NCBI GenBank assembly: GCA_017646685.1 | Contig: JAGCLZ010000114.1 | Location: forward strand, 1-42,513 | Reading direction: 5' to 3' | Length of the DNA stretch: 42,513 nt | Origin: Bacteroidales bacterium | Lineage (GTDB): Bacteria > Bacteroidota > Bacteroidia > Bacteroidales > P3 | Part shown: in pieces, positions 6,214 to 33,487 of the stretch | Numbering within the stretch: position 1 is the first letter of the stretch | Layout: each line of letters begins with the position of its first letter | Made by a program: the position numbers and the translations under genes | Notes under the pieces: model-generated | What the model saw: only the letters and a program-made list of their open reading frames with translations | What the model was told of the DNA's origin: nothing | The model's database searches: none

Positions 6214-6226
6214 GACCTTGAAAGAT

Positions 6227-7162
6227 ATGGAAAAAGATATTGTACTTGTGTGGAATAGAACCATACACGACTTTGAGATGTTTTTGAAGTTGGAGAAAGG
6301 TCTTTTGCCAAACTCTGTAAATGCATATATACATGATGTGTCGTATCTTTCGGAATACTCGCGTAAGATGAGGCTTATGCCAGAGGAGATAAAGTTGACC
6401 GATTTGCAAGATTTTCTGAAAGAATTGAATGCTACCGAAATAGCGTTGACCACACAATGTCGTATGATATCGGGGATAAGGATGTTTTTTAAGTATTTGC
6501 TTATAGAAGATGCTATACAGGAAAATCCTGCCGATTTGCTTGATGTGCCTCGCACAACACGAAAACTTCCTGATGTACTTAGCAATGCCGAGGTAGACAG
6601 AATGTTGGCTACGCTTGATAACAGCAAGCCCGACGAAGCACGTAATACTGTAATTATCGAAGTTTTGTATGGTTGTGGTTTGCGTGTGTCGGAGTTGGTT
6701 GGACTTACATTGTCGCAGTTGTATTTGGAAGAGGAGTGCCTGCTTATAACTGGCAAGGGCAATAAGCAACGTTGGGTGCCTATCAATGCAAGAGCCATAA
6801 AACTATTGGAAAACTATATATCTCTTATTCGAACACAGATACCTGTCAAACCCGGAAATGAAAATTATGTTTTTCTCAATCATCGGGGAACCAAACTTTC
6901 GAGAGTATATGTCTTTATGATAATCAAAAAGGCAGTGGAAGAAGCCGGCATACACAAAACGGTGAGCCCTCATAGTCTGCGCCATAGTTTTGCTACAGAG
7001 CTGGTACAAAATGGTGCCGACTTGCGTGCCGTACAGGAAATGTTGGGTCATTCATCAATTACAACTACAGAAATATACACACATATTTCGCGTTCTTATT
7101 TGCGTAAAACAATACTTGAATATCATCCACGTTATAGAAAAAGTAATTCAGAAAACGACTGA
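6227..7162 (+). CDS. xerD: Tyrosine recombinase XerD
   Basis: A 311-residue tyrosine recombinase with the N-terminal SAM-like core-binding domain (about 8-90) and a C-terminal catalytic domain. Active-site residues are visible: Arg in YGCGLRVSELVGL, Lys in TGKGNKQRWVPI, the HSLRHSFATELV motif, the His in LGHSSITTTEIY and the nucleophile Tyr in that same segment. Length and the HSLRHSFATELVQNGADLRAVQEMLGH-like spacing match housekeeping XerD, which resolves chromosome dimers at dif with XerC. ATG at 6227 is preferred to the in-frame TTG at 6218. It is very different from the second recombinase at 21.7 kb. Confidence 0.9.
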   Translation: MEKDIVLVWNRTIHDFEMFLKLEKGLLPNSVNAYIHDVSYLSEYSRKMRLMPEEIKLTDLQDFLKELNATEIALTTQCRMISGIRMFFKYLLIEDAIQENPADLLDVPRTTRKLPDVLSNAEVDRMLATLDNSKPDEARNTVIIEVLYGCGLRVSELVGLTLSQLYLEEECLLITGKGNKQRWVPINARAIKLLENYISLIRTQIPVKPGNENYVFLNHRGTKLSRVYVFMIIKKAVEEAGIHKTVSPHSLRHSFATELVQNGADLRAVQEMLGHSSITTTEIYTHISRSYLRKTILEYHPRYRKSNSEND

Positions 7163-19627: not shown

Positions 19628-19651
19628 AAGCTCTCATATAGCCATATAACT

Positions 19652-19690
19652 AACCGCCCAAAGTTTCATTGCGAAACTTTGGGCGGTTTG
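19652..19690 (+). terminator. Strong terminator after lipoprotein operon
   Basis: A perfect 16-bp stem (19652-19667 with 19673-19688, AACCGCCCAAAGTTTC and complement) with a 5-base loop, followed by TTTGCTTTTTG. Confidence 0.9.
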
Positions 19691-19848
19691 CTTTTTGCAC
19701 TCGCCATACTTGCGAGTTATAAACATGCGGGTTTGGCATTGTAAGTGCCATACTTACGGGGCAAAACTATGGCACTTACGGGTCGTAAACCACAGGGTTG
19801 CGAACGTCAATTTTTTGTTCTGCGACAAATAAATTGGACGGACGTTAT

Positions 19849-19899
19849 TTATCGGTTAGCTTGCGTTTGTCCGAAACCTACAAGGCGGTCGTAGAGGTC
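19849..19899 (-). pseudogene. 3'-end fragment of a T9SS plug (DUF5103) gene; candidate attachment site
   Basis: On the minus strand this short stretch encodes DLYDRLVGFGQTQANR followed by a stop. It matches the end of the intact DUF5103 protein at 39515-40786 (DLYDRLVGFGQSQAN) at 14 of 15 residues. Across the 45 bases there are 8 differences, of which 7 are silent, so it diverged while still coding. Nothing upstream in the frame continues the gene. The intact copy lies in the same orientation 19.7 kb away, which is what an integrative element inserted at the gene's 3' end would produce (displaced original tail). A decayed duplicate gene is the alternative. Confidence 0.7.
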
Positions 19900-20266
19900 A
19901 CTTTAAATAAATCTCTCTTGTTCCTCGAATGGCCTCTTACCGTGCTAGACTTCAACCTCTAAATCGTCTTGCAACACCATTCCCTACCTCTTGAAAAGTT
20001 TTGCAAAGTTAAAACCTTTTTCCGAAACATCCAAATTTTTTTGAAAAAAGTGGTCGTTTGCTACTCAAAACTATGTGGTTTAGAGGTGGAAAGTGTGCGG
20101 TTTACGGCTTAAAACCATGGGAGTTATGGCTCAAAAGTATGGGGGCTACAATGGTTAAACTGCGTATTTTCAGACTATGGACAACAGACTATGGACAACG
20201 GTCTGGCGGTAGCCGGATGGGGCTACGCCGGACAACAAGACAACGAGTCAACGAGACAACTAGTGG

Positions 20267-20472
20267 GGCGGTAGCCACTTGTAGTCTCGTAGTCTTGTGG
20301 ACTAGTTGCCTGCGAAGCTAGGGCGGTAGCCACTTGTAGTCTCGTAGTCTTGTGGACTAGTTGTCTGCGAAGCTAGGCGGTAGCCACTTGTAGTCTCGTG
20401 GTCTTGTGGTCTCGTAGTCTGCGAAGCTAGGGCGGTAGCCACTTGTAGTCTCGTAGTCTGCGAAGCGGTAGC
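20267..20472. repeat. Four tandem copies of a ~55-bp repeat
   Basis: Copies start at 20267, 20322, 20376 and 20431 with GGCGGTAGCCACTTGTAGTC and run through TCTCGTAGTCTTGTGGACTAG to TGCGAAGC. The last copy is shortened. Reverse-complement pieces (ACAAGACAACGAGTC, GAGACAACTAG) lie just upstream at 20233-20262, so the array can fold back. Confidence 0.85.
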
Positions 20473-20496
20473 TGAGCATAAACCCAAAATTCGACA

Positions 20497-20594
20497 TTGT
20501 CAGCCCCGCCTCACCACCGTATCCCCCCGTATTCCCCCTAAAGGGGAATACTTAAGGGGGATACTTGAGTGGTGGCGGACGGAGGTGCTGACAA
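20497..20594. repeat. 98-bp imperfect palindromic element
   Basis: The ends TTGTCAGC (20497-20504) and GCTGACAA (20587-20594) are perfect inverted repeats. Inside are nested pairs: CCACC/GGTGG, GTATCCCCC/GGGGGATAC and GTATTCCCC/GGGGAATAC around a CTAAA loop. A long cruciform or RNA hairpin is expected. It resembles a miniature palindromic element; family unknown. Confidence 0.8.
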
Positions 20595-20652
20595 GTCGCC
20601 ACGATTTCAAAGCTTCGCCAAGACTACAAGACAACTAGTCAACGAGACAACG

Positions 20653-20760
20653 AGTACTGCGGCAGCCACTTGTAGACTTGTGGTCTCGTAGTCTGCGAAG
20701 CGATAGCTGAGCCCAAGGCGGTAGCCGTCTCATGACTCACGACTCTTTCGACTGCGAAGC
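20653..20760. repeat. Degenerate copies of the 55-bp repeat family
   Basis: GCGGCAGCCACTTGTAGACTTGTGG (split here by position, 20661 onward), TAGTCTGCGAAGCGATAGC and GGCGGTAGCCGTCTCATGACTC are diverged parts of the family at 20267. Confidence 0.6.
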
Positions 20761-20860
20761 CCCTTTTGTCCTTTGCCTTTCGTCGGTATAGTCTGCGATG
20801 CCCTCCGTTGTCCGTTGACTGTAGTCCTAAAAAAACGCCTATTGTAATTCAGTTTTTTAC

Positions 20861-20970
20861 AAACAAAACGGGACAAAACGGGACAAAACGGGACAAAACG
20901 GGACAAAACAGGACAAAACGGGACAAAACAGGACAAAACAGGACAAATCGGGACAAATCGGGACAAATCG
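20861..20970. repeat. Tandem array of 11 copies of a 10-bp unit
   Basis: Units of consensus GGACAAAACG run from 20861 to 20970; some copies end in ACA and the last three have AAATCG. The period keeps exact 10-bp spacing, about one helical turn, so repeated sites would face the same side of the DNA. A -7-like box (TATCTTTG, 20995-21002) is just downstream. Confidence 0.9.
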
Positions 20971-21412
20971 TTAAAGTGACATTTCGAATGTTTGTATCTT
21001 TGCAAAACCGAACCGAAAAGTGCGTATGCGGTTAAAGTGCTGAACAAAATGCTTTTGCTTCTACCTCTCCTCTCTTACAACCTCGCAAAAGTGTTTTTAG
21101 GACAACAGACAACAGACAACGGAATTGGAAAGAGTTCTTTGACATGTTTTTGAACTACGTAGGACAACGGACTACAGACAACGGAGGTCGGTTGCTTGCT
21201 CTCAATTTTATCGCGAAAATAATCCGTAATTTGCGAAAAGCACGAAAACTCTTTCTGCTACGCAAAAAGTAGGGCGGTAATCGGAGCTATGGAACTACGG
21301 ATTAACGGAATCACGGATTTATGGATTGCTACGCTTCGTAGCTCACAACTCATAGCCTCATACGAAAATACGTGCGATATGCGGAGCCAGCCAATAGCTA
21401 ACAGCTGACAGT

Positions 21413-21533
21413 AGTGCGACAGCCACTTGTAGTCTCGTGGTCTTGTAGTCTGCGAAGCGGTAGCAGAGCATAGTGCGGCAGCCACTCGTGGTCTTGTTGT
21501 CTCGTGGACTTATAGCCTGCGAAGCGTTATCGA
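21413..21533. repeat. Two more degenerate copies of the 55-bp repeat family
   Basis: GCGACAGCCACTTGTAGTCTC at about 21416 and GCGGCAGCCACTCGTGGTCTTG at about 21475, both ending in TGCGAAGCG, repeat the pattern of the array at 20267. Confidence 0.65.
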
Positions 21534-21588
21534 AGCCCTCTTTCGTATATCCTGTACAGTCTCACCTTATTTGGATTCAAAAAAATAT

Positions 21589-21610
21589 TTTTGAAATGCA
21601 AAAGTAAAGT
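21589..21610. repeat. Left 22-bp inverted repeat
   Basis: Exact reverse complement of 22737-22758, beginning TTTTGAAATGCAAAAGTAAA. It holds CAAAAGTA (21599-21606), a leftward TACTTTTG box without a -33 partner in the present orientation. Confidence 0.9.
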
Positions 21611-21681
21611 AGAAGCTAAATTGTAGTTTTATAGTAGATTATAGTTTGCATTTCGACGTTATGTTCATAAAACTATCAGTA

Positions 21682-22638
21682 ATGAATGCAATTAAATACA
21701 ATGCTATAAATTTAAATCCAAATCGGCCTCGATACAAAAAAGGAATATCGATAAAAGAACTTATTTATAAGCGACAAGAAAAGATACGCAAACATACTCA
21801 AACAATAGATTTAACACTATTGAAACACCTGAATGATTTTTCAAAAGAAAATACACTTATTCAATCAGTTGATGCAAATTTTTGCTATAAGTTTGCAAAC
21901 TATCTTGTTTCCCAAGCAAAATTACAAATAAGCAGTGCCACCACTTATATGCAAAAATTACATGCAGTACTGCAAGATGCAGTTTATTTGGGATATTTAA
22001 AAAGTAATCCTATGCCTCCGATTAGTCGACTACTTCCTAAATATACATCACCACAAAGGTCAAATCTTAGTGTAGAAGAAGTGGAAACCTTAAATAATTC
22101 AGAATGTCCGCACTTAATAACCAAGTTGGCATTCCTTTTCTCGTGCTATACTGGGTTGCGATTGTCAGATATAGAAACTCTTAGATGGAATAACATAAAT
22201 AAGAGGAATGGTGTATATATGTTGACAAAAATTCAAGTAAAAACAAATAGCGAAGTATATATACCTCTATGTAAGCAAGCTGTACAAATATTGCAACAGG
22301 TGCAGAATAACAAACTATCAAATGATGAAAATATATTTCCAATGTATTCACGTACCACGATATACTCCGACCTTCGACAATGGGGTACTAATGCAGGAAT
22401 AACTAAACATATTACTTTTCATATATCTAGAATAACCTTTGTTACACTTTCCATTTCGGCAGGAATGAATATGTATGTAATATCCAAACTATGTGGGCAT
22501 AAAGATATAAAAACAACGCAAGTATATGCACGAATGATAGATCGCACCTACATTGATGCCATGACGATGTTTGAAAACATATTCAAATATAAGAAACTTA
22601 AACAAAAAACTTCTCAAAAAGTTGAATTATTACTATAA
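21682..22638 (+). CDS. Tyrosine recombinase (invertase/integrase type)
   Basis: About 318 residues from the ATG at 21682 (MNAIKYNAINLNPNRPRYKK); an in-frame ATG at 21661 would add seven residues. The core-binding domain spans about 30-125 and the catalytic domain 135-300. The full catalytic set is present: Arg in YTGLRLSDIETL, Lys in KIQVKTNSEVYIP, HISR in the box II region, His in LCGHKDIKTTQVYARM and the nucleophile Tyr there. It is unlike XerD at 6.2 kb and resembles phage-integrase-type enzymes that in Bacteroidetes act as DNA invertases or transposon integrases. It lies inside the inverted repeats, so it is the obvious candidate to invert this segment; it could instead, or also, be the integrase of the whole island. 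Confidence 0.88.
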   Translation: MNAIKYNAINLNPNRPRYKKGISIKELIYKRQEKIRKHTQTIDLTLLKHLNDFSKENTLIQSVDANFCYKFANYLVSQAKLQISSATTYMQKLHAVLQDAVYLGYLKSNPMPPISRLLPKYTSPQRSNLSVEEVETLNNSECPHLITKLAFLFSCYTGLRLSDIETLRWNNINKRNGVYMLTKIQVKTNSEVYIPLCKQAVQILQQVQNNKLSNDENIFPMYSRTTIYSDLRQWGTNAGITKHITFHISRITFVTLSISAGMNMYVISKLCGHKDIKTTQVYARMIDRTYIDAMTMFENIFKYKKLKQKTSQKVELLL

Positions 22639-22717
22639 CTTATGCCAAAAGTATTGCTAAATAATTAAGGTTATTTATTTGTAAATACGACTGTTATTCC
22701 GATTTAAGAAAATAAAT

Positions 22718-22748
22718 TTTGCCAATTCAAAAATAAACTTTACTTTTG
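22718..22748 (+). promoter_or_regulatory. Consensus promoter of the tubulin/PEGA operon, in the ON position
   Basis: TTTG (22718-22721), exactly 19 bases, TACTTTTG (22741-22748). The -33 box is inside the invertible segment; the -7 box is inside the right inverted repeat. The first gene starts at 22809, about 55 bases after the expected transcription start. Confidence 0.8.
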
Positions 22749-22758
22749 CATTTCAAAA
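22737..22758. repeat. Right 22-bp inverted repeat
   Basis: ACTTTACTTTTGCATTTC plus AAAA, the exact reverse complement of 21589-21610. It overlaps the -7 box. Confidence 0.9.
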
Positions 22759-22808: not shown

Positions 22809-23363
22809 ATGTATTGGGTGATATTAATAGCAATAGTATTGACAGTTTTGGTAGCTGTAGTTGCACTGAATATAGATGTAAAAAAGAGTTTTTCAGTGCT
22901 TTCTGTTATTATATTGATTGTGGGATTTGGATTGTTGTGGCTAGAAGTATCTACTACAGCCAATGCTATACAGTCTAAGCGTTCGTTGTCCGAAACGGTT
23001 GGTGCTGTAAGCAACTCAATACTTCAAGTGGTGGGCGAAGAGAATGCCGATTATAGATTTGATTACAATGATGCGACTAATATTTTTTTGACGTTAAAAC
23101 TATATTCGCCGGTATCGTTGGAAGGGATGGAAGTAAACGATATTGTAGGTCAAACGGTAGTTTCGTTGCCACAGGTAATAGGCAAGGAGTTGGCACAAAA
23201 ATATAAAACTCGTATTGTGGTAAATATATTTCTTATACTGCTTACTTTATGTGCAATGTGTTTTTTTGTAGCCAAAACAATGCAGGGTACATCAAGAGGT
23301 AGGAGTAGTAGAAGCTATAGCGATGAAGGATATAGCAAAAATACCCGTTTCGAAGATTTTTGA
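22809..23363 (+). CDS. Small membrane protein, first gene of the tubulin/PEGA operon
   Basis: A 184-residue protein with two N-terminal membrane helices (about 3-22 and 28-48), a soluble, probably periplasmic, region (about 50-135) and a third helix (about 140-160) followed by a Ser/Arg-rich cytoplasmic tail (GRSSRSYSDEGYSK). Its family was not recognised. Topology resembles a membrane anchor or adaptor. It lies 43 bases before the tubulin-like gene, so it may anchor or position that protein at the membrane. No other function can be stated. Confidence 0.75.
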   Translation: MYWVILIAIVLTVLVAVVALNIDVKKSFSVLSVIILIVGFGLLWLEVSTTANAIQSKRSLSETVGAVSNSILQVVGEENADYRFDYNDATNIFLTLKLYSPVSLEGMEVNDIVGQTVVSLPQVIGKELAQKYKTRIVVNIFLILLTLCAMCFFVAKTMQGTSRGRSSRSYSDEGYSKNTRFEDF

Positions 23364-23406: not shown

Positions 23407-26400
23407 ATGGCAAATCATTTGATTATAGGATTAGGTGGAACCGGTGGTAAAATTATCCGAGAATTCCGCAAACGTATATATGAAGAATTTCGCACTCTTG
23501 AACCTGGTGAAGGTGTGCATATAGATTATGTTTATGTAGATTCGTCAACCGAAGATCTAAACGATCGTAAAGATTGGAAGGTGATGGGCAAGAGTGTGCA
23601 TTTGGGCGAAGCTCAAAAGGTTAATATCAATGGTGTTAATGCTTCGATGCTTGATAATATCAAGATGTATCCCGGATTGGAAGCTTTTCTTAATGGCGAA
23701 GATGTACGTATGATGCGTGGCGAAAAGATGGGGCCGCTTATTACTGCCGGTATCGGGGGACAACGTCGCAGACTGGGCCGTACATTGATAGCCAATAATA
23801 TGAGTGATAAAAACAATTCATTAAATTTTGAGGCTACAGTTCGTTCGGCTGTTCAACGTCTACAACAAAATAGTAGCGACCAAAGTGTAAACTTCCATAT
23901 CTGTGCCGGTTTGGCAGGCGGAACAGGTTCCGGTTCTATAGTAGATGCAGTGTCGCTTATACGAAAATGGTTTTATAATCCACAAGACCCTAAAACATTT
24001 AAGGTAAGACTTATGGTTTATATGCCTGAGCAAACAATGGTACACACTAATCATGATGCAGGTTTTTATCAAGCAAATGGTTATGCCGCATTGTCCGAAC
24101 TTAATGCAATGAGTGTTGGCAAGTATCACCCGGTTGATATTATGGGTGAAAAAGAATTGTTTGGTGATAGAGCACAACGCCTATTGCAAAATCAAGAAGC
24201 TTTCGAGGCTTGTTATATTTACAGCAATGTAAATGAGTATGGCAAAACACTTGAGTTGACTCAAGAATTGCCATCGGTAGTAGCCAACTTCCTTTTCCAA
24301 ACCATAGTGGCATCGGATATTGTTGGCGATAAAGGCCGAATGTCCAGAGTGGAAGGATGCGAAAATGAAGGTGCCGGACCCGAAGTGGATCAAGCCGGAC
24401 AAAGCACCCGCTCTCGTAAATTTTTGAGTTTTGGTATTACTCGTGTGTCTTATCCCGAAAGCGAAGTGAGGGAATTTGTTACCTATAGCTATGCCACACA
24501 GGTAGCCAAGCAACTTACCTACAATTATTGGATAGGAGGTCAAGGTTATAGCGAACGTACACTCGACGAGGTGGGTTCCGGTTATTTGGAAGAGATAAAG
24601 CAACCTAGAAATAGAGGTTCTTTGATGTTGGATAACAGTAGATTGATGTTATCCTCGGCTATTATAGATAACGATTCGTCAAAGAAATGGAAAGATATAG
24701 ATGAAACGTGGAGCTCGCGAACCGCACGCGAAACAAACGATATAATGCAAACTGAACCCGACAAGAAATTGTGGGTGAATAGTTTGAACGAGCGTTGCAA
24801 AAATTTCTTTGAAAGAGATTTTCGCAATCAAGGTGTAAAGGCTTTTTATACCAACCAACGAAAGGAACTGAAAGCATATGCTAAATTTATTCGTCGACAC
24901 ATTGAAAGTAAGATGTTTACCGATTGGACTGCCGGTAACAGATCAATGCTAGAGGTGGAAAAATATATAAGCATACTTATTTCGGACTGCAACGAACGTA
25001 TAAATAAGTTTACCGAACAAAAATCTAACTTGATGAATACCGAATTGTCTCGTTCGATGGACGAGATGAAACAATGCAAGGTAGATTACGACAATATTGG
25101 TTGGCTAAAGGATGCTATTACAGGTGCTTCGGGCAAGATATTTGGACGTTACCAAACTGCTATTACCGATTATTATACTACAGCAACTCGCATAGAAGCA
25201 TACGATTATGCCAAGGAATTGCTAGCCGAAATAGTTATAGAGTTGGGCAAAATGCAAGAAGGTGTACGAGCATTCAAAAATAGAATTGCCGAAATTAATG
25301 AAGAGGTAGAAAAACAAGCTGCTTCTAAATGTAAGACTAACGAGGAGCAAGACGAAGCAAACATTAAGAAATACGATCCCGAAAAAGTTAGAACTATTGT
25401 ACGTCAGTATACTTCGAACAAAGAGTATCAAGACAAAACAGCTCAAGCTATCCGAAATAGTTTTATAACAAATCTTGGTGAGGATGGCGAACGTTCGTTT
25501 GCAAACCTTTACGATAAAACAGACTTTAACAGTATAAGTGATACTATTTTGGATATTTGTACGAACAACGCTATTGAAGCAATGGAAGAAACTGCAAAAA
25601 GTGATCCTTTGTGCAGAATGATAGGTGTGAACATTCTTGAAAAACTAAAACAAGAACTTATTACCGAAGACCAATTGGATCAATTTGTAAAAAATATTGT
25701 ACAAAAGTCTAGCACATACGTGCAGTTTAATGCCGAAGAGAAATCAAAGATTATTGCCGGCAATGTAGGTGCTATGCAAAGTATGGTGCAGGTAAGTATA
25801 CCGGTAGCTGACGAAAATACTCAGGCTTTCAGAAATAAATTGGTAGAAGCTTTCAAGAGAACATTGCCGGGATTTACAGATGCGGATGTTTCGGAACACT
25901 ATAAAAACAACGAAATAGTATGCGTGTCGGCCAGAGCCGGCTTCCCATTGCGTTATTTGGCTAATATGGTTACTTTGCGTGAAAAGTATGAACGCTTGTT
26001 GGCAGCACAGGATGGAAACTATAATAAAATGCTTTTACATACCGAAAGTGGCGTTGAATTGCCTTCGCTTTTCGAAAAGTCTAAGGATGAAATCAAAAGA
26101 GATGTATTTAAATCTCTTATGTTGGCATACACTCTTGGTCTGATACAAGAACAACAAAATCCTGTAACCGGCGAGCGTTTTTCGGCAATGAAGAAGAAAG
26201 ATGCCTTTGGTAATGATGAATGGGTACAACTTGGAAAAGATTTTGCCTTGGTATGGGATGCACTGGGTAACGATTATGCCAAAGCTACAGAGTTGAAAAA
26301 CTTGGTAAAGAAAGCATTAGAAACCGAAGCTCGTAGCAACGAACAAAAGGCTGCTCTTAAACCTTTGTTGGGCAACGTGTTGGTAAATCAAGTGAAAGTA

Positions 26401-26493
26401 TCGTTGTGTGAAAACAACGAGTTCCATCCCGATTACCAAAAGTATAAGAATCTTGCATTAGAGATTCTTGAAAACGAATTGAAACAATTGTAG
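23407..26493 (+). CDS. Tubulin/FtsZ-like GTPase (Tubulin_2-type), 1028 aa
   Basis: A 1028-residue cytoplasmic protein. The N-terminal Rossmann-like start LIIGLGGTGGKIIREF (6-21) and the phosphate-binding GGTGSG loop (171-176 in AGLAGGTGSGSIVDAVSL) are the two hallmark GTP-contacting segments of tubulin/FtsZ-type proteins. The GTPase domain is about 1-420. The rest (420-1028) is largely helical with charged, coiled-coil-like stretches (for example 600-690) and is much longer than in FtsZ. Family knowledge: 'tubulin-like' large proteins (Pfam Tubulin_2) are encoded in accessory loci with undefined roles and may polymerise. It is placed here between a membrane protein and a zinc-ribbon membrane protein. 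Polymerisation and GTPase activity are inferred only. Confidence 0.85.
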   Translation: MANHLIIGLGGTGGKIIREFRKRIYEEFRTLEPGEGVHIDYVYVDSSTEDLNDRKDWKVMGKSVHLGEAQKVNINGVNASMLDNIKMYPGLEAFLNGEDVRMMRGEKMGPLITAGIGGQRRRLGRTLIANNMSDKNNSLNFEATVRSAVQRLQQNSSDQSVNFHICAGLAGGTGSGSIVDAVSLIRKWFYNPQDPKTFKVRLMVYMPEQTMVHTNHDAGFYQANGYAALSELNAMSVGKYHPVDIMGEKELFGDRAQRLLQNQEAFEACYIYSNVNEYGKTLELTQELPSVVANFLFQTIVASDIVGDKGRMSRVEGCENEGAGPEVDQAGQSTRSRKFLSFGITRVSYPESEVREFVTYSYATQVAKQLTYNYWIGGQGYSERTLDEVGSGYLEEIKQPRNRGSLMLDNSRLMLSSAIIDNDSSKKWKDIDETWSSRTARETNDIMQTEPDKKLWVNSLNERCKNFFERDFRNQGVKAFYTNQRKELKAYAKFIRRHIESKMFTDWTAGNRSMLEVEKYISILISDCNERINKFTEQKSNLMNTELSRSMDEMKQCKVDYDNIGWLKDAITGASGKIFGRYQTAITDYYTTATRIEAYDYAKELLAEIVIELGKMQEGVRAFKNRIAEINEEVEKQAASKCKTNEEQDEANIKKYDPEKVRTIVRQYTSNKEYQDKTAQAIRNSFITNLGEDGERSFANLYDKTDFNSISDTILDICTNNAIEAMEETAKSDPLCRMIGVNILEKLKQELITEDQLDQFVKNIVQKSSTYVQFNAEEKSKIIAGNVGAMQSMVQVSIPVADENTQAFRNKLVEAFKRTLPGFTDADVSEHYKNNEIVCVSARAGFPLRYLANMVTLREKYERLLAAQDGNYNKMLLHTESGVELPSLFEKSKDEIKRDVFKSLMLAYTLGLIQEQQNPVTGERFSAMKKKDAFGNDEWVQLGKDFALVWDALGNDYAKATELKNLVKKALETEARSNEQKAALKPLLGNVLVNQVKVSLCENNEFHPDYQKYKNLALEILENELKQL

Positions 26494-26518: not shown

Positions 26519-27190
26519 ATGGCACTAAAGAAAGGTGTTTGCAAAAACTTTGACAACTGCGATTTGGCAGATAAACAAGAAATACAAGAAGTGGAATCGA
26601 CAGAGTTTAAATGCTCGGAATGCGGAAAAGATTTGCACGAAATTGCTACTACCACAAAGCCTAAAGGTGGCTCAAAGAAAATAGTTGTTATTGCAGCTAT
26701 TTTGGTGGTTATTATAGGTGCTGCGTGTGCTTATCTTTTAGTGGGTAATGAACCGCAGATGCAGATTGAACCGAAATCTGAACAGCAGAATGAACAGCAG
26801 AATGAAGAACCACAGAACAAGCCTCAGACTGAACAGCAGGTAACGGAAGTGAATTCTACTGATGAATTTGAAGATATAGGTTGCATTACAGAGGAAGAAA
26901 TGAAAGAACTTGAAGCAGAATTCAAGAATAATCAACAAGCAGAAACTCAATATGACTATGATTTTGGTTGGGCTAAATATAATGGACCTATGAAAGGTGG
27001 TAAACCTCATGGTCCGACTGGAACACTTAAGATAACTCGTAGTTATAGTATTGATTTGAAAGATGGACTTGGTTCTACACTTGATGTATATCCTGGCGAA
27101 ACTATCGAAAATACCAAGTTTGATAATGGTCGGTTGCGTTCCGGTGAGTTGCATCGCCTTGATGGTACTCGTCCGTATTTCAATATATAG
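26519..27190 (+). CDS. Zinc-ribbon, single-span membrane protein with MORN-like C-terminus
   Basis: A 223-residue protein. The N-terminus has a two-part zinc ribbon: Cys-x4-Asn-Cys near residues 8-14 (VCKNFDNCDLA) and CSECG near 39. A membrane helix (KIVVIAAILVVIIGAACAYL, about 58-77) follows, then a Gln/Glu-rich linker (about 80-115), then a C-terminal domain starting FGWAKYNGPMKGGKPHGPTG, with a glycine/aromatic pattern like MORN repeats. The zinc ribbon side is likely cytoplasmic and could contact the tubulin-like protein encoded 25 bases upstream; the C-terminal part likely lies outside the membrane. A bridging role is inferred. Confidence 0.78.
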   Translation: MALKKGVCKNFDNCDLADKQEIQEVESTEFKCSECGKDLHEIATTTKPKGGSKKIVVIAAILVVIIGAACAYLLVGNEPQMQIEPKSEQQNEQQNEEPQNKPQTEQQVTEVNSTDEFEDIGCITEEEMKELEAEFKNNQQAETQYDYDFGWAKYNGPMKGGKPHGPTGTLKITRSYSIDLKDGLGSTLDVYPGETIENTKFDNGRLRSGELHRLDGTRPYFNI

Positions 27191-27222
27191 TTTTTACTAG
27201 ATGTTTTATAACTTTTAAACAG

Positions 27223-28152
27223 ATGATTAAGCGGTATTTTATAGTACTATTTACTATAAGCTTTGCACTAGGAGGTGTAGCTGTTGCACAGACTGATGTG
27301 GAACGGCTACATCATCATTTTATACAGCGCCTGGTATATGGTTCTGAGAAAGGAGAACTGCAAGGCAAACCAATAGATAAATTTATGCAAGAGGAGAAAA
27401 TTTCTATCCTCGAAGGTGATTTTAAATTATTGGGAGTTTTGAATAGTGATACTTCTGCCATAATGGAGATGACTATTGTGGATGGCAAACGCTATGCCAT
27501 AAGTTTTATTAAGGATAGTGTGAGAAAGGCTGTTATCAGTTATCCGGCATCGTATCAGCTTATACTTGGAACCACTCTTATGGAGGCAGAGAATTTGTTG
27601 TTGAATAATGTTCGACGTACGGCGTTGCCACCGGTAGAGGATGGTAGTATTTCGGGCGATATATTGCAACGAATAGGTACTAGTGATATATATCTTTTAA
27701 AGGGTTTTCATTACACATTGCCCGAACTCAATGCCAATCGCTACTATGTAAAAGAGAGCGACACTGTTTATTCTTTGCTATACAGCGAGGATTTGCCTAT
27801 GGAAACTATGGCAAACCTTATTACCGGCACAGAGATAGAAAACCAATTGATGTTGAATATCACTATGGTGAAGTATGGTTATAAGATAGATAGTGCAACT
27901 GTTCCTTTAAGGCAATGGATTACCTATTGCTTTTCGGAGGGATGTGTGCCTTATTTTGGGGTAATGACTAAAGAGTCGGAAAAAATGGTTTGTGAGCTTT
28001 TGATGATAAACGAAATGCTGGGGTATGCCCATGTTATGAAAATGGAGTTTAATCCCAAAATATTGGCCAATCGTGAAGGTAAAATTAAAGCTCGATTAAA
28101 TAGTTATATTCCTATTTGGAATTTAAAGTCGTTGATGGATGATAAAAACTAA
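27223..28152 (+). CDS. Secreted protein of unknown function
   Basis: A 309-residue protein with a signal peptide ending near GVAVAQ (residue 22). The mature part mixes strands and helices with no recognised motif: an initial helix (VERLHHHFIQRLVYG), a strand-rich middle and a helical end. It has few cysteines. Lying 32 bases after the zinc-ribbon gene and four bases before the next, it is part of the operon and probably a periplasmic component. Function unknown. Confidence 0.72.
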   Translation: MIKRYFIVLFTISFALGGVAVAQTDVERLHHHFIQRLVYGSEKGELQGKPIDKFMQEEKISILEGDFKLLGVLNSDTSAIMEMTIVDGKRYAISFIKDSVRKAVISYPASYQLILGTTLMEAENLLLNNVRRTALPPVEDGSISGDILQRIGTSDIYLLKGFHYTLPELNANRYYVKESDTVYSLLYSEDLPMETMANLITGTEIENQLMLNITMVKYGYKIDSATVPLRQWITYCFSEGCVPYFGVMTKESEKMVCELLMINEMLGYAHVMKMEFNPKILANREGKIKARLNSYIPIWNLKSLMDDKN

Positions 28153-28156
28153 TGAT

Positions 28157-29110
28157 ATGATTAAGAAATTTACAATTACGCTTTTAGCGTTGATTATGGG
28201 AGTGGTTGTAATGGCTCAGCAAGAATCTGTAAGTAAGCAAATAAATCAGATAAAGCGAAATCCATTGTACATCTATTCCGAAGCTACGATGGCTACAGAG
28301 GAAGAAGCACGCGAAGTGGCTTGTGAAATGCTTTTGAAACAAGTAAAGGAGTATGCTGAATCAAAAAAATATCTGGTAAAGGCTGATAATATCTTGATAA
28401 AGGACATTCAAACAAAAAGTGAGTCGCTTATGATGCGACGTGGTACTATGTATCGTGTGTTTGTGTATGTTAGCAAGATAGATATTGAACCTGTAAATAA
28501 TGTTACAAACATTAATAGCTCTACCGGCACTACGATAAGTACCAATAATGTGGTGACAAAAGTAACGAACGCTAAACCTACTGTTGAACAAAAACAGAAA
28601 GAGCCGGAGACAGTAAAGAAAAAAGAGAATGTTGTTTCGAAAAAGAAAAAAGAGGATTATTTTTCGAAAACGAAGAAAGTAGAGCCGGCTGTAAAATCGG
28701 AACCGGCTACAGTGAAATCGGAACCGGCTGTAAAATCGGAACCGGTGGTAGCTAATGAGAAAAAGGAAATCAATACTACAAAAGAGATCGAAACTATGAA
28801 TATCCATTCGGGAAATCTTCCTAAATGGCAGCAACAAGCAATTGAGTCTTTACTTACTTGTGCTAATGTGTCGGAAATTATTAATAAACTAAATCGATTG
28901 AAAGCGGAATATAAGATAAGTGGATACGGAACTGCAGATAAATGTCGTTCGGTAGCCAGCTCTTATTGGATTATTTTTGATTCCGATGGAAGACTAGTTA
29001 CTATATTAGGAATGGGAGAAACAGAAAGACTTGATTATAGTTCAGCGCAAACATCTTCGTTAGAAAAATATAGAGGAATGAATGCATTATGGTTTAATTT
29101 TGCAAAATAA
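28157..29110 (+). CDS. Secreted protein with KSEPA repeat linker
   Basis: About 317 residues from the Met at 28157; an upstream in-frame ATG at 28139 overlaps the previous gene and is disfavoured. The signal peptide ends near VVVMAQ. Residues about 25-115 contain IYSEATMATEEEAREVACEM and a strand-helix pattern reminiscent of FlgT/LPP20-like periplasmic domains (tentative). A charged low-complexity linker follows, with repeats of VKSEPA encoded by near-identical 21-27-bp DNA repeats at about 28680-28745. A C-terminal globular domain (about 215-317) starts with a helix LPKWQQQAIESLLTCANVS. Probably periplasmic; function unknown. Confidence 0.72.
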   Translation: MIKKFTITLLALIMGVVVMAQQESVSKQINQIKRNPLYIYSEATMATEEEAREVACEMLLKQVKEYAESKKYLVKADNILIKDIQTKSESLMMRRGTMYRVFVYVSKIDIEPVNNVTNINSSTGTTISTNNVVTKVTNAKPTVEQKQKEPETVKKKENVVSKKKKEDYFSKTKKVEPAVKSEPATVKSEPAVKSEPVVANEKKEINTTKEIETMNIHSGNLPKWQQQAIESLLTCANVSEIINKLNRLKAEYKISGYGTADKCRSVASSYWIIFDSDGRLVTILGMGETERLDYSSAQTSSLEKYRGMNALWFNFAK

Positions 29111-29120
29111 TAGATATAAG

Positions 29121-30083
29121 ATGAAAAAGATATTATTGTTAGTTTTAGCTATTGTATTTGGATACGTGGCAAATGCACAAGATGTGGTGTATTTTGAGTT
29201 TTCTGATGGTATAGAAGGAAACCTTAAAAGTGTGATGGAACGAAATACATCTAATTTACTTACAGCTATCAATCGTGCCGAAAGCACTAATAGTGATATA
29301 AATTATACGGGTATAAGTATTGACAATCTTGCTTCGCAAAGTATAGGAATGATGTGGAATAATGTTCGTTTTAGAGTATTGGACGAAGATATCGTAGAAC
29401 ATTGTTTGAGCATCAAGTCGAGTTCGGGAAAGGTTATAGGTTATCAAGTGCGTAATATTGCAGTTGAAATGAAACCGCGTGATAATACTTATATTGGAGA
29501 CCTAAACCAAGAAGTTTGTATCAATTTTGATAGAAATGGTCGTATAAGCGATTTTAATATCACTATGGGTTTGCAACAATATGTAAAACTTATAAAGGAA
29601 GGTGAACGCTTGGATGATTTGGATCGTCGTATGCAAATTTTGCACTGGGTAGAACAATTCCGTAATGCCTATATTACAAAAGATATAAACTTTATGGAAA
29701 ATGTGTTTAGCGATGATGCTCTTATCGTTACCGGTAAAGTGGTGAAACGTCAAAAAACAGATATGAAGCCTATAAGTGTGGAATATACTACGCAAGGAAA
29801 ACAACAATATTTGAATGGTTTGCGTCGTGTGTTTAAAAACAATGCCTACATAAACGTTAATTTTGATGAGATTAAGATAGTTCGTCATGGTGCCAAACCA
29901 AACTATTATGGAGTTACTCTTAAACAAGGATGGAACACCAAGGGTTATAGCGATGAGGGTATAGTGTTTATAGTATGGGATTTTACTGATGAGTTTAATC
30001 CAAAGATAATGGTGCGTACATGGCAACCAATGCAAATTGATGATAAAGATGTATTTACACTTGGCAATTTTAAGTTGAACTAA
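29121..30083 (+). CDS. Secreted protein with NTF2-like C-terminal domain
   Basis: A 320-residue protein from MKKILLLVLAIVFGYVANAQ (signal peptide); the longer frame starting at 29082 overlaps the previous gene and is not used. The first half (about 20-165) is strand-rich. The second half (about 180-320) starts LHWVEQFRNAYITKDINFMENVFSDDALI, a helix-turn-strand pattern characteristic of NTF2-like (SnoaL-type) domains, ending with WDFTDEFNPKIMVRTW. No catalytic residues can be assigned. It follows by 10 bases and precedes the first PEGA gene by four bases, so it is an operon member in the periplasm. Confidence 0.75.
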   Translation: MKKILLLVLAIVFGYVANAQDVVYFEFSDGIEGNLKSVMERNTSNLLTAINRAESTNSDINYTGISIDNLASQSIGMMWNNVRFRVLDEDIVEHCLSIKSSSGKVIGYQVRNIAVEMKPRDNTYIGDLNQEVCINFDRNGRISDFNITMGLQQYVKLIKEGERLDDLDRRMQILHWVEQFRNAYITKDINFMENVFSDDALIVTGKVVKRQKTDMKPISVEYTTQGKQQYLNGLRRVFKNNAYINVNFDEIKIVRHGAKPNYYGVTLKQGWNTKGYSDEGIVFIVWDFTDEFNPKIMVRTWQPMQIDDKDVFTLGNFKLN

Positions 30084-30087
30084 CGAA

Positions 30088-31422
30088 ATGAAGAAGCATA
30101 TATTTTTTCTATTAGCAGTAGTATTTTCGACTTCTGTATTTTCGCAGCAGTTGAAAGTGGTAGAGAATTTGTATAAAGACGAGAATTCGAGATATGCTAT
30201 TGATTATCCCAGGGAGGATTTTAATAAAACTCTTTGTGGTCTTATTCTCGTAGAATTGGATATGCCGGAAGCAACATTTGAAGGTGATGTTGTATATTCT
30301 GAATATCAAAATGGTGTGTGGTGGATATACATGTTGGATGGTGCAAACTGGCTTACGGTTAAAGCTAATGAATATGTACCTTTGCGTCTCGAATTTAGTC
30401 CTATAAAGATAGAGAGTGCTGCTACTTATTTTATGAAGATAGAAAAGGTGCAAAACGAATCCATACCATTGGTAAGACAATATCTGGTTATACGTACTGA
30501 ACCATCGGATGCTAAAATATATGTCGATGGTGAATATGTAGGACAAGGCGAAGTAGCACCATTTTTGCCGGTTCATAAAGAACATCACTATAAGGTGGAA
30601 GCTCCGCTGTATCATTCGGAAGAAGGAATAGTGCGAATGACTGCCGACAATACAACTGAGTTGGAAGTAAAGTTGGAGCCAGTGGATTTGGGATATTTGG
30701 TAAGTATACGAACCGACCAGTTTGGCGATAGTTTGTATGTCGACGATAATTTTATGGGTGTTTCGCCACAAGAGTTGTATTTTGAGATAGGTTCATATCA
30801 GATAGAGGCTAGACGTGGAATGGCTGTAATGGAACGAACCTTGGAAATAACAGATAAACTGCGAAAAGATGAGACTCTAGATGTTCTTATAGAAATAAAA
30901 GAATATGATTTTGTTGACTTGGGATTGAACGTTAAATGGGCTACATGTAATGTTGGCGCTTCTGTACCTGAAGAATATGGCCATTGTTATACGTGGGGCG
31001 AAACAATGTTCAAGGATGAATATGTTTTGGACAATTGTGCTACCTGTCGTGATACTATATATGAGATAAGCGGTAGTGCTACACATGATGCGGCAAGGGT
31101 TAATTGTGGCAAAAAATGGAGAATCCCAACAAAGGATGAGATGGCCGAACTGAAGGATAGATGCCAATGGACATGGACTGAAAAGAATGGTGTGAAAGGT
31201 TATGAGATAACCGGACCTAATGGAAACACTATTTTTATGCCGGCTGCCGGAAATTATATGGGATCAACGAGGTACAATGCCGGTATAGGTGGTTTGTATT
31301 GGACTGCAACATCGCCCTCTACCGAAAAAGGAAATGCTTATTATTTGCATTTCGATGTGGATAGAAATATAATTTCAGCCGATAGATATTATGGGCTTGC
31401 AATACGTCCGGTGATAGATTAA
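30088..31422 (+). CDS. Exported protein: shared N-domain, two PEGA repeats, FISUMP domain
   Basis: A 444-residue protein with a signal peptide ending near VFSQ. Residues about 20-120 form an unnamed N-terminal domain found in all four large proteins of this cluster (SQQLKVVENLYKD ... CGLILVELDMPEATFEGD ... WWIYM). Two PEGA-type beta repeats follow (about 130-205, with IYVDGEYVGQGEVAPFLPV, and 206-275). The C-terminal part (about 275-444) is a Fibrobacter major paralogue (FISUMP) domain: FVDLGLNVKWATCNVGA, EYGHCYTWGE, WRIPTKDEMAEL, GLYWTATSPS and IRPVID. FISUMP has a C-type-lectin-like fold and is usually at the surface. A binding or adhesion role is inferred. Confidence 0.85.
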   Translation: MKKHIFFLLAVVFSTSVFSQQLKVVENLYKDENSRYAIDYPREDFNKTLCGLILVELDMPEATFEGDVVYSEYQNGVWWIYMLDGANWLTVKANEYVPLRLEFSPIKIESAATYFMKIEKVQNESIPLVRQYLVIRTEPSDAKIYVDGEYVGQGEVAPFLPVHKEHHYKVEAPLYHSEEGIVRMTADNTTELEVKLEPVDLGYLVSIRTDQFGDSLYVDDNFMGVSPQELYFEIGSYQIEARRGMAVMERTLEITDKLRKDETLDVLIEIKEYDFVDLGLNVKWATCNVGASVPEEYGHCYTWGETMFKDEYVLDNCATCRDTIYEISGSATHDAARVNCGKKWRIPTKDEMAELKDRCQWTWTEKNGVKGYEITGPNGNTIFMPAAGNYMGSTRYNAGIGGLYWTATSPSTEKGNAYYLHFDVDRNIISADRYYGLAIRPVID

Positions 31423-31489
31423 GGTATTTGAAACTAATAAAGAAAGAAATAATATTTTGTAACATATTAAATATTTCAATAGCAACTAA

Positions 31490-33487
31490 ATGAAACGATT
31501 TGTATTATTGACTTTGCTGTTAGTGGTTTGTGGTACCACATTTTCTCAGCAACTACGTGTGGTTAAGGAATTGTATAAAGATGAAAACAATACTCTTGCT
31601 GTTAAGTATCCAAGGAAAGATACCAGAGGTGATAATTGTGGTCTTATACTTGTAGGATTGGTTATGCCCGATGCAAAATTTGAAGGAAATATAGTGTATA
31701 AGGAATACAAGCAAGGGGAATGGTGGATTTATATGCCTAAAGGTTCCACATCTTTTACTGTAAATGATGTGTTGCGTTGCAGTTTCTCTCCTATAGAGAG
31801 CAATGCTACTTATTTGATGACGATAGTTCGTGAAAATAAAGACGCAGTTAAAAATTACTTGGTTATCAGAACCAATAATTCTAGTTCAAAGATATTTGTT
31901 GACAATGAATATATGGGAAAAGGGGAGTGTAGCAGTTTTTTGGATGTGTCTAAAAAATATACATATCGTATAGAAACTCCTTTGCACCATACCGAAGAGG
32001 GAGTGCTTGAATTGTCGGAAGATAAAACAACAGAACTAAACATCACTCTAAGACCTGCTTATGGTTATCTACAAATAAATACATTTCCTGAACAGGGTGC
32101 AACTATAGAGATAAATGGAGAGGAATATGCAGAGGTTACTCCGTTTACAACAAAGGCTTTTGCAAGTGGCGTTTATAAAATACAAGCATTTAAGCAAATG
32201 TACAAACCGGTGATGGTAGAAGCAGTGGTAGAAGATGGAAAAACAACACAAGTTGATATAAGTTTGGTTTCCAATTATGGTAATGTTTTGATAGTGTTGG
32301 CTGATGGAGATGCCATGTTGTATGTGGATGATAAATATATATCGCAGGGTACTTGGCAGGGGTCTCTTACTGCCGGAGAGCACATTATAGAGGCACGAAA
32401 AGATAACTATTATACATTTTCTAAAAAACTAAATGTGATAGAGGGACAAACCGAAAAAGTGTCGATCCCTCCTTTGCAATACAAATCCGGAAAATTAAAT
32501 GTAAATTCCAATCCTATTGGAGCTGACATAAAAATAGATGGGAAAGATTACGGCAGAACTCCTAAGGTGGTACAAAATATAATAACGGGAACACATTCGA
32601 TTAGTATTTCCAAAGCCGGATACGCTACCTATACCGCCAATGTGGAAGTGGAAGAAGACAAGATGGCAGAAGTTAGCTGCACACTTGTTAAAGGAGTGGA
32701 TAAAACTACTCAACCTGCATTGGCCAATATAACTACAGGCCAACAAGGAGACTCTGTATACGTAAATAAAAAATACATAGGTAAATCGCCGATAAACAAG
32801 TATTCTCTTAAAGCAGGCAAATATACCATTGAAGCCAGACGCAATGGTGCAAAGGTTTCGAAGGACATAAATGTAAATGCAAACAACGGTCAGACGATGA
32901 ATGTTGTTCTTGAATTTCCAAAACAAGCTGTTGCTAGTAGCAATACTGATTCGCAAAAAGAAGATGACGAACAATCTAAAGCAGATAATTATAGAATAAA
33001 AAATCGTTTCTTCTTTACGGGCGACTATGTGTATTCCTTAACCCAACATACAGCATACGGTCTTACTATCGGTAAGGTGTACAATGGGTCGTTGGGATGG
33101 TATGTTTCGGTTGCAAGTAATCTTGTTGACGGATTTTCGATAACTAGAGAATTGAGAACCGACCATATTTACGATCATTATTATACCGGCGAAACAAAGG
33201 TGATGAGACATTCGGCAACGTTGGGTGTTCTTCTAGGTGGCCGACATTTTTATTGGAAATTGGGCGGTGGTTATGGAATGCGTAATATGATGTGGTATAC
33301 ATCAGATGGAAAATGGTATAATGTGATGGAAGATAGCTATGAAGGAATAGAAATTACAACCGGTTTTCAGTTGATGCTTTGGCGTTTTGTAATATCGGCC
33401 GACGTATTGGTTCCTATAGATAAGTTTGATATACAAGGAGGTCCTTTCTATTGGGAAGCACGTGCCGGTGTAGGTTTTAATTTTTAA
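31490..33487 (+). CDS. Exported protein: shared N-domain, five PEGA repeats, barrel-like C-terminus
   Basis: A 665-residue protein with signal peptide (FSQQLRVV start of mature part). The shared N-domain spans about 20-118, then five PEGA-type repeats (about 120-470), each with a strand-DG-strand core such as IKIDGKDYGRTPKVV and VYVNKKYIGKSPI. A Ser/Asp/Glu-rich linker (about 473-495) leads to a C-terminal region (about 496-665) with alternating aromatic/polar strands (FFFTGDYVYSLTQHTAYGL ... GGHYFYW-like, ending EARAGVGFNF) and a terminal Phe, consistent with an outer-membrane beta-barrel. The repeats would then extend on the periplasmic side or surface. Function unknown. Confidence 0.82.
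   Translation: MKRFVLLTLLLVVCGTTFSQQLRVVKELYKDENNTLAVKYPRKDTRGDNCGLILVGLVMPDAKFEGNIVYKEYKQGEWWIYMPKGSTSFTVNDVLRCSFSPIESNATYLMTIVRENKDAVKNYLVIRTNNSSSKIFVDNEYMGKGECSSFLDVSKKYTYRIETPLHHTEEGVLELSEDKTTELNITLRPAYGYLQINTFPEQGATIEINGEEYAEVTPFTTKAFASGVYKIQAFKQMYKPVMVEAVVEDGKTTQVDISLVSNYGNVLIVLADGDAMLYVDDKYISQGTWQGSLTAGEHIIEARKDNYYTFSKKLNVIEGQTEKVSIPPLQYKSGKLNVNSNPIGADIKIDGKDYGRTPKVVQNIITGTHSISISKAGYATYTANVEVEEDKMAEVSCTLVKGVDKTTQPALANITTGQQGDSVYVNKKYIGKSPINKYSLKAGKYTIEARRNGAKVSKDINVNANNGQTMNVVLEFPKQAVASSNTDSQKEDDEQSKADNYRIKNRFFFTGDYVYSLTQHTAYGLTIGKVYNGSLGWYVSVASNLVDGFSITRELRTDHIYDHYYTGETKVMRHSATLGVLLGGRHFYWKLGGGYGMRNMMWYTSDGKWYNVMEDSYEGIEITTGFQLMLWRFVISADVLVPIDKFDIQGGPFYWEARAGVGFNF

Follow-up and report, generated by a model that had tools for sequence, protein, structure and literature searches.

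A putative invertible promoter cassette enclosing its own tyrosine recombinase upstream of a tubulin-like/PEGA operon in an uncultured Bacteroidales bacterium

The 42,513-nucleotide stretch of Bacteroidales DNA analyzed here (the window) contains a segment of 1,170 bp (positions 21589 to 22758) that is most probably a self-contained invertible promoter cassette, ON in the assembled orientation for an operon encoding a tubulin-like protein and PEGA-domain proteins. In the proposed mechanism, the enclosed tyrosine recombinase would act on both inverted-repeat arms and invert everything between them, its own gene included, with the core site of each arm consisting of TTTTG and CAAAA half-sites that flank a 5-bp crossover spacer. 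The sole outward promoter would lie at the recombinase-3′ end of the segment, with its −33 box within the segment and its −7 box within the arm. In the assembled orientation, this promoter would transcribe the operon 51 bp away, which encodes a membrane protein, the tubulin-like protein, and PEGA proteins (ON); after inversion, the −7 box would stay at the operon, the −33 box would be lost (AAAC), and the promoter would face 2 kb of gene-free DNA (OFF). It is very probable that the segment flips, switching the operon on and off. The module recurs at many other genes of uncultured relatives, where both orientations occur. The mechanism is supported by the one-sided promoter, the constancy of the spacer within each element, orthologous flanks that adjoin one end of the segment in one relative and the other end in another, and a sister element placed between two alternative surface-protein genes. 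A locked relic, a transposon, read-through transcription, and flipping by a paralogous recombinase were all judged less likely than an invertible cassette.

The original prediction had described a perfect 22-bp inverted repeat around 1,126 bases, and its coordinates are exact: the left arm (21589 to 21610) and the right arm (22737 to 22758) are complementary at 22 of 22 positions. Of all perfect inverted repeats in the window whose arms are separated by no more than 1.2 kb, it is the longest, and the best perfect inverted repeat in Markov surrogates of the window (n = 20) was 15 bp. The core site of the left arm is TTTTG-AAATG-CAAAA (half-site, spacer, and half-site), and the right arm has TTTTG at 22744 to 22748, the spacer CATTT at 22749 to 22753, and CAAAA at 22754 to 22758. 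The full tyrosine recombinase claimed to lie between the arms was likewise found. Its ORF on the forward strand extends from an ATG at 21661 to a stop at 22638 (325 amino acids), with an alternative TTG start at 21646, and matches PF00589 (2.5e−25) and PF13102 (1.9e−13); all family matches of the protein are to tyrosine recombinases, XerA and XerD among them. The catalytic residues R172, K195/K199, H259, R262, H285, and Y294 (R-K-H-R-H-Y) are intact and invariant among ten aligned family members, and the assignment rests on these residues, the Pfam matches, and the enclosure by arms across the family. The recombinase is predicted to invert its own segment. The window locus is present on a single contig and was assembled in one orientation only, which, together with promoter-only remnants among sister elements (G005:C48, G005:C36, and G004:C37), could point to a locked relic whose promoter works and whose segment no longer inverts. 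However, the window recombinase has all of its catalytic residues, and the arms are perfect over 22 bp, where decay would have blurred them, making a relic quite improbable. We infer that the window copy inverts and that its own recombinase is responsible. The window encodes another tyrosine recombinase at 6218 to 7162, which is only distantly related (27% identity); no tRNA genes were found in the window.

The operon promoter is split across the segment boundary exactly as originally predicted. The −33 box TTTG (22718 to 22721, + strand) lies within the segment, and the −7 box TACTTTTG (22741 to 22748, + strand) lies within the right arm, where it overlaps a recombinase half-site; the spacing between them is 19 nt, and the promoter as a whole (22718 to 22748) crosses the boundary. 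The pattern TTTG-N18-20-TAnnTTTG was found 8 times in the window, versus 1.05 expected. The left arm has an outward −7-like box on the − strand (21599 to 21606) but AAAC at −33, and therefore there is no promoter there in the present state. In silico inversion left both arms unchanged, placed AAAC rather than TTTG before the operon −7 box, and produced a leftward mirror promoter at 21599 to 21629, in full agreement with the inverted state that had been foreseen. Because the −7 box sits on a recombinase half-site, it is possible that the recombinase occludes RNA polymerase at this box. The − strand has a further sequence resembling a promoter, TTTG-N18-TATTTTTG (22728 to 22757), which is directed toward the interior of the segment and runs antisense to the end of the recombinase; in a comparison by eye with one sister element, no such inward match was seen.

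The first gene of the operon (22809 to 23363, + strand) encodes an apparent membrane protein of 184 amino acids with no Pfam match and begins 51 nt past the right arm, which leaves little space for another promoter. It is followed on the same strand by the gene for the tubulin-like protein (Tubulin_2; 23407 to 26493; 1,028 amino acids; PF13809, 2.3e−53), four co-directional genes (26519 to 30083) for proteins of 223, 309, 323, and 333 amino acids without Pfam matches, and genes for two PEGA-domain (PF08308) secreted proteins of 444 and 665 amino acids (30088 to 33487). The 223-amino-acid protein is encoded first, and the other three intermediate products look secreted; PADLOC returned one marginal match on the operon. 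Judging from the sequence, the promoter is probably active and the whole gene series is probably one transcript. The recombinase gene reads toward the operon, and read-through from it could contribute to operon expression. It is very unlikely that such read-through is the main source of transcription and the arm promoter incidental: a terminator-like site between recombinase and operon was searched for and not found, but the −33/−7 geometry is kept across elements while the flanking sequence varies, and promoter-only remnants keep it after loss of the recombinase.

The left flank (19628 to 21588), which the promoter of the invertible cassette would face after inversion, is repeat-rich and gene-free over 1.96 kb, and the inverted promoter would therefore drive nothing obvious there. 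It contains a ten-base tandem repeat, ACAAAACGGG, in approximately 10 copies (20863 to 20982) and repeats of approximately 54 bp (GGCGGTAGCCACTTGTAGTCTCGTAGTCT...) at 20267 to 20459 and 21410 to 21557, with inverted relatives nearby. The host is an uncultured member of Bacteroidales, and its genus relatives derive from ruminant gut metagenomes. Across the order, 3 of 198 genomes, including that of the window, carry the operon's tubulin gene; the gene and the operon are absent from all five other genomes of the genus, which leaves the window locus without a cross-species comparison.

A search with the recombinase revealed that the window's genome has three more close copies and that others are present in four sister genomes. 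The layout of the window element recurs around related recombinases in the genus and, in a few cases, in a sister genus, as at G000:C43 and -C86, G002:C104, G005:C72, -C84, and -C10, G004:C43, and G001:C102, and further partial copies are interrupted by contig ends. Within the genus, wherever both ends lie on the contig, an inverted repeat surrounds the recombinase, with one exception (G000:C41; L171:19337-19597), which retains the left arm but has, in place of the right arm, unrelated sequence with the start of an apparent transposase gene. The repeat sequences differ among elements, and every one has an outward TAnnTTTG box. In a directed test, enclosure by arms was detected in 12 of 100 recombinase loci versus 0.2% in left/right-swapped controls, and all arm-bearing members fall within one clade of 21 (support, 100/100). 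Several sister-genus members of this clade have no enclosing repeat, and the enclosed layout is thus typical of the clade, not universal. Enclosing repeats were not found around distant homologues (less than approximately 40% identity), and the viral contigs searched contained only distant relatives of the recombinase, which gives no link to phages.

The nine complete elements share a one-sided promoter. At the recombinase-3′ end, eight of them have TTTG as the −33 box, preceding the −7 box by 19 or 20 nt, and the ninth has ATTG; at the opposite end, none has a −33 TTTG. Each arm forms a small dyad, TTTG-N5-CRAA in most elements, whose 5-bp spacer is the same in both arms of all nine elements, while the outer positions diverge (permutation P = 1e−5). 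Seven spacers occur among the nine elements (CATTT, CACTT, CAATT, CAAAC, TAGTC, CAATC, and CACCT). Tyrosine recombinases require a matching crossover region between partner sites, and a spacer that is constant within an element and variable between elements is the pattern that they demand. Across elements, arm distances correlate with recombinase distances (Mantel r = 0.67; P = 0.0006; the test makes no correction for shared descent). These data bear on whether a paralogous recombinase of the same genome flips the window segment. The genome has three other close recombinases with similar half-sites, and half-site recognition could be shared among paralogs; nonetheless, flipping by a paralog is unlikely, as every element encloses its own recombinase, the arms co-vary with it (partly through shared descent), and the four spacers within the window's genome are all distinct (CATTT, CACTT, CAATT, and CAGTC). 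Three elements at contig ends of one genome (L172, L173, and L182, on G002:C47, -C105, and -C41) have the common spacer CAGTT, so that cross-talk between these loci is possible.

Opposite orientations were observed at loci of relatives, in comparisons between species or metagenome-assembled genomes and not within one clone. At locus B, beside a group of rhodanese-like, ion channel, and M16 peptidase-like genes, the orthologous flanks of G005:C73 and G002:C47 are 99.3% identical over 587 bp, up to the arm; the identity breaks there, and beyond the arm, one genome continues with the recombinase 5′ end and the other with the 3′ end. At locus C, a shared gene and terminator hairpin precede the segments of G002:C41 and G005:C48, with the promoter end pointing toward the gene in G002:C41 and away from it in G005:C48, where only the last recombinase codons remain. 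The promoter of G005:C48 faces a leader that, in G004:C37, precedes genes for an HU-like protein and a lipoprotein, and the arrangement reads as a locked-ON derivative. At locus A, G002:C104 has an operon whose first gene is NusG/UpxY-like and which begins at a distance of 31 bp from the end that lacks the promoter (OFF), and a homologous operon lies at the promoter end in G000:C43 (ON); the two operons are diverged homologues with 38 to 75% identity, not strict orthologs. In G005:C72, the element lies between genes for two divergent IgGFc_binding proteins of 1,866 and 1,862 amino acids, and its repeats, which are approximately 200 bp long, contain the start and signal peptide of both. Inversion of this element would swap the surface proteins, as in a natural A/B switch. 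Support for the original prediction of a phase-variable promoter segment carrying its own recombinase comes from these relatives, the window locus itself being in one orientation.

The occurrence of multiple copies within a genome, at loci that are unrelated, with homology between copies that can end at the arm, is also what would be seen if the segment were a transposon-like mobile element that has terminal inverted repeats and an incidental promoter and was inserted either way round. This explanation is highly improbable. Inspection beyond the window arms revealed no target-site duplication, the outer bases differing between left and right; the crossover spacer differs between elements and never within one, which is the rule for mutually recombining sites; at two loci, the start codons under control are 31 to 51 bp away from the arm; and at G005:C72, the two alternative genes start within the extended arms. 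Since the cassettes must have spread by some process, past mobility is possible.

Inverted repeats around a promoter with the Bacteroidota consensus place the window element with the Bacteroidales invertible promoters. The described ones, such as Tsr19/BF2766 of Bacteroides fragilis, in which a tyrosine-type invertase acts at an invertible promoter (PMC4747536), and the IP-ARG classes, likewise combine a dedicated recombinase, inverted repeats, and the −33 TTTG/−7 TAnnTTTG consensus, and they likewise control surface or secreted products; a further likeness is that one sister locus has an operon headed by an UpxY-like gene. In those systems, however, the invertase adjoins the invertible region (PMC8748976, PMC4747536), whereas here it lies inside the segment and turns with it. 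The −7 box is here part of the recombination site, which is perhaps peculiar to this cassette family; the idea that a promoter split across the repeat is the usual logic of Bacteroides switches was not confirmed by these papers, which give the same consensus with the invertase beside the region (PMC8748976, PMC4747536). The outside position of the recombinase is typical of described invertible promoters, not strictly defining, and the window element is a variant. According to a survey of DNA inversion, most recombinases are located near the switch and only occasional ones lie within it, Hin being the named example (PMC5903667). As in Hin/fljBA of Salmonella, the invertible segment is approximately 1 kb and holds the recombinase and an outward promoter (PMC5903667), but Hin belongs to the serine recombinases and uses a Fis enhancer, and the window element has a tyrosine recombinase and other core sites. 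The survey also describes the fimbrial switch of Providencia stuartii, in which an 844-bp putative invertible segment encloses a recombinase ORF and adjoins surface genes (PMC5903667); unlike the multicopy Bacteroidales family with its −7 box in the arm, that switch is a single proteobacterial locus with 14-bp imperfect repeats. Within the open-access literature compared, the window element has a Hin-like layout of the tyrosine class.

The elements may jointly represent a class of self-propagating phase switches, a reading that we offer tentatively, in which one cassette combines recombinase, promoter end, and core sites, the −7 box overlaps the binding site, the spacer is cassette specific, and the cassette is placed before unrelated operons. 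In that case, the enzyme might additionally act as a repressor of the promoter that it moves, as its binding site lies on the −7 box; the cassette-specific 5-bp spacer would bar recombination among sister cassettes of a genome; and ON/OFF or A/B switches would act on tubulin/PEGA, Hsp70/M48, surface-protein, and polysaccharide genes. A cassette with recombinase, sites, and promoter could move as a unit and make any gene phase variable, whereas described Bacteroidales phase switches have the recombinase outside the switch (PMC8748976, PMC4747536). The 5-bp spacer rule predicts which cassettes could cross-talk. The tubulin-like/PEGA operon and an Hsp70/M48 operon at sister loci are not commonly listed among phase-variable types.

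Several further pairs were considered and rejected as orientations or orthologs of one locus. G002:C47 and -C105 have an exact 141-nt end in common but four adjacent differences, and they were taken as two copies, not as clean evidence of a mixed population; the flanks of G005:C65 and G002:C105 match over approximately 100 bp only, and the genes beyond differ; and the 180-bp near-identical stretch of G000:C43 and G002:C104 lies among genes that are not collinear and is more likely a dispersed repeat than an ortholog flank. Two elements of different species face convergent genes across a common stretch of approximately 100 bp (ATCAACGGTGTTAGAATCTAAATC...; L173:17746-17846 and L175:1004-1101). 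The remnants L176, L177, and L178 retain the promoter end but have neither a complete recombinase nor a second arm; two of them, with the downstream side on the contig, precede lipoprotein genes, one after an HU-like gene, and all three are apparent locked-ON derivatives.
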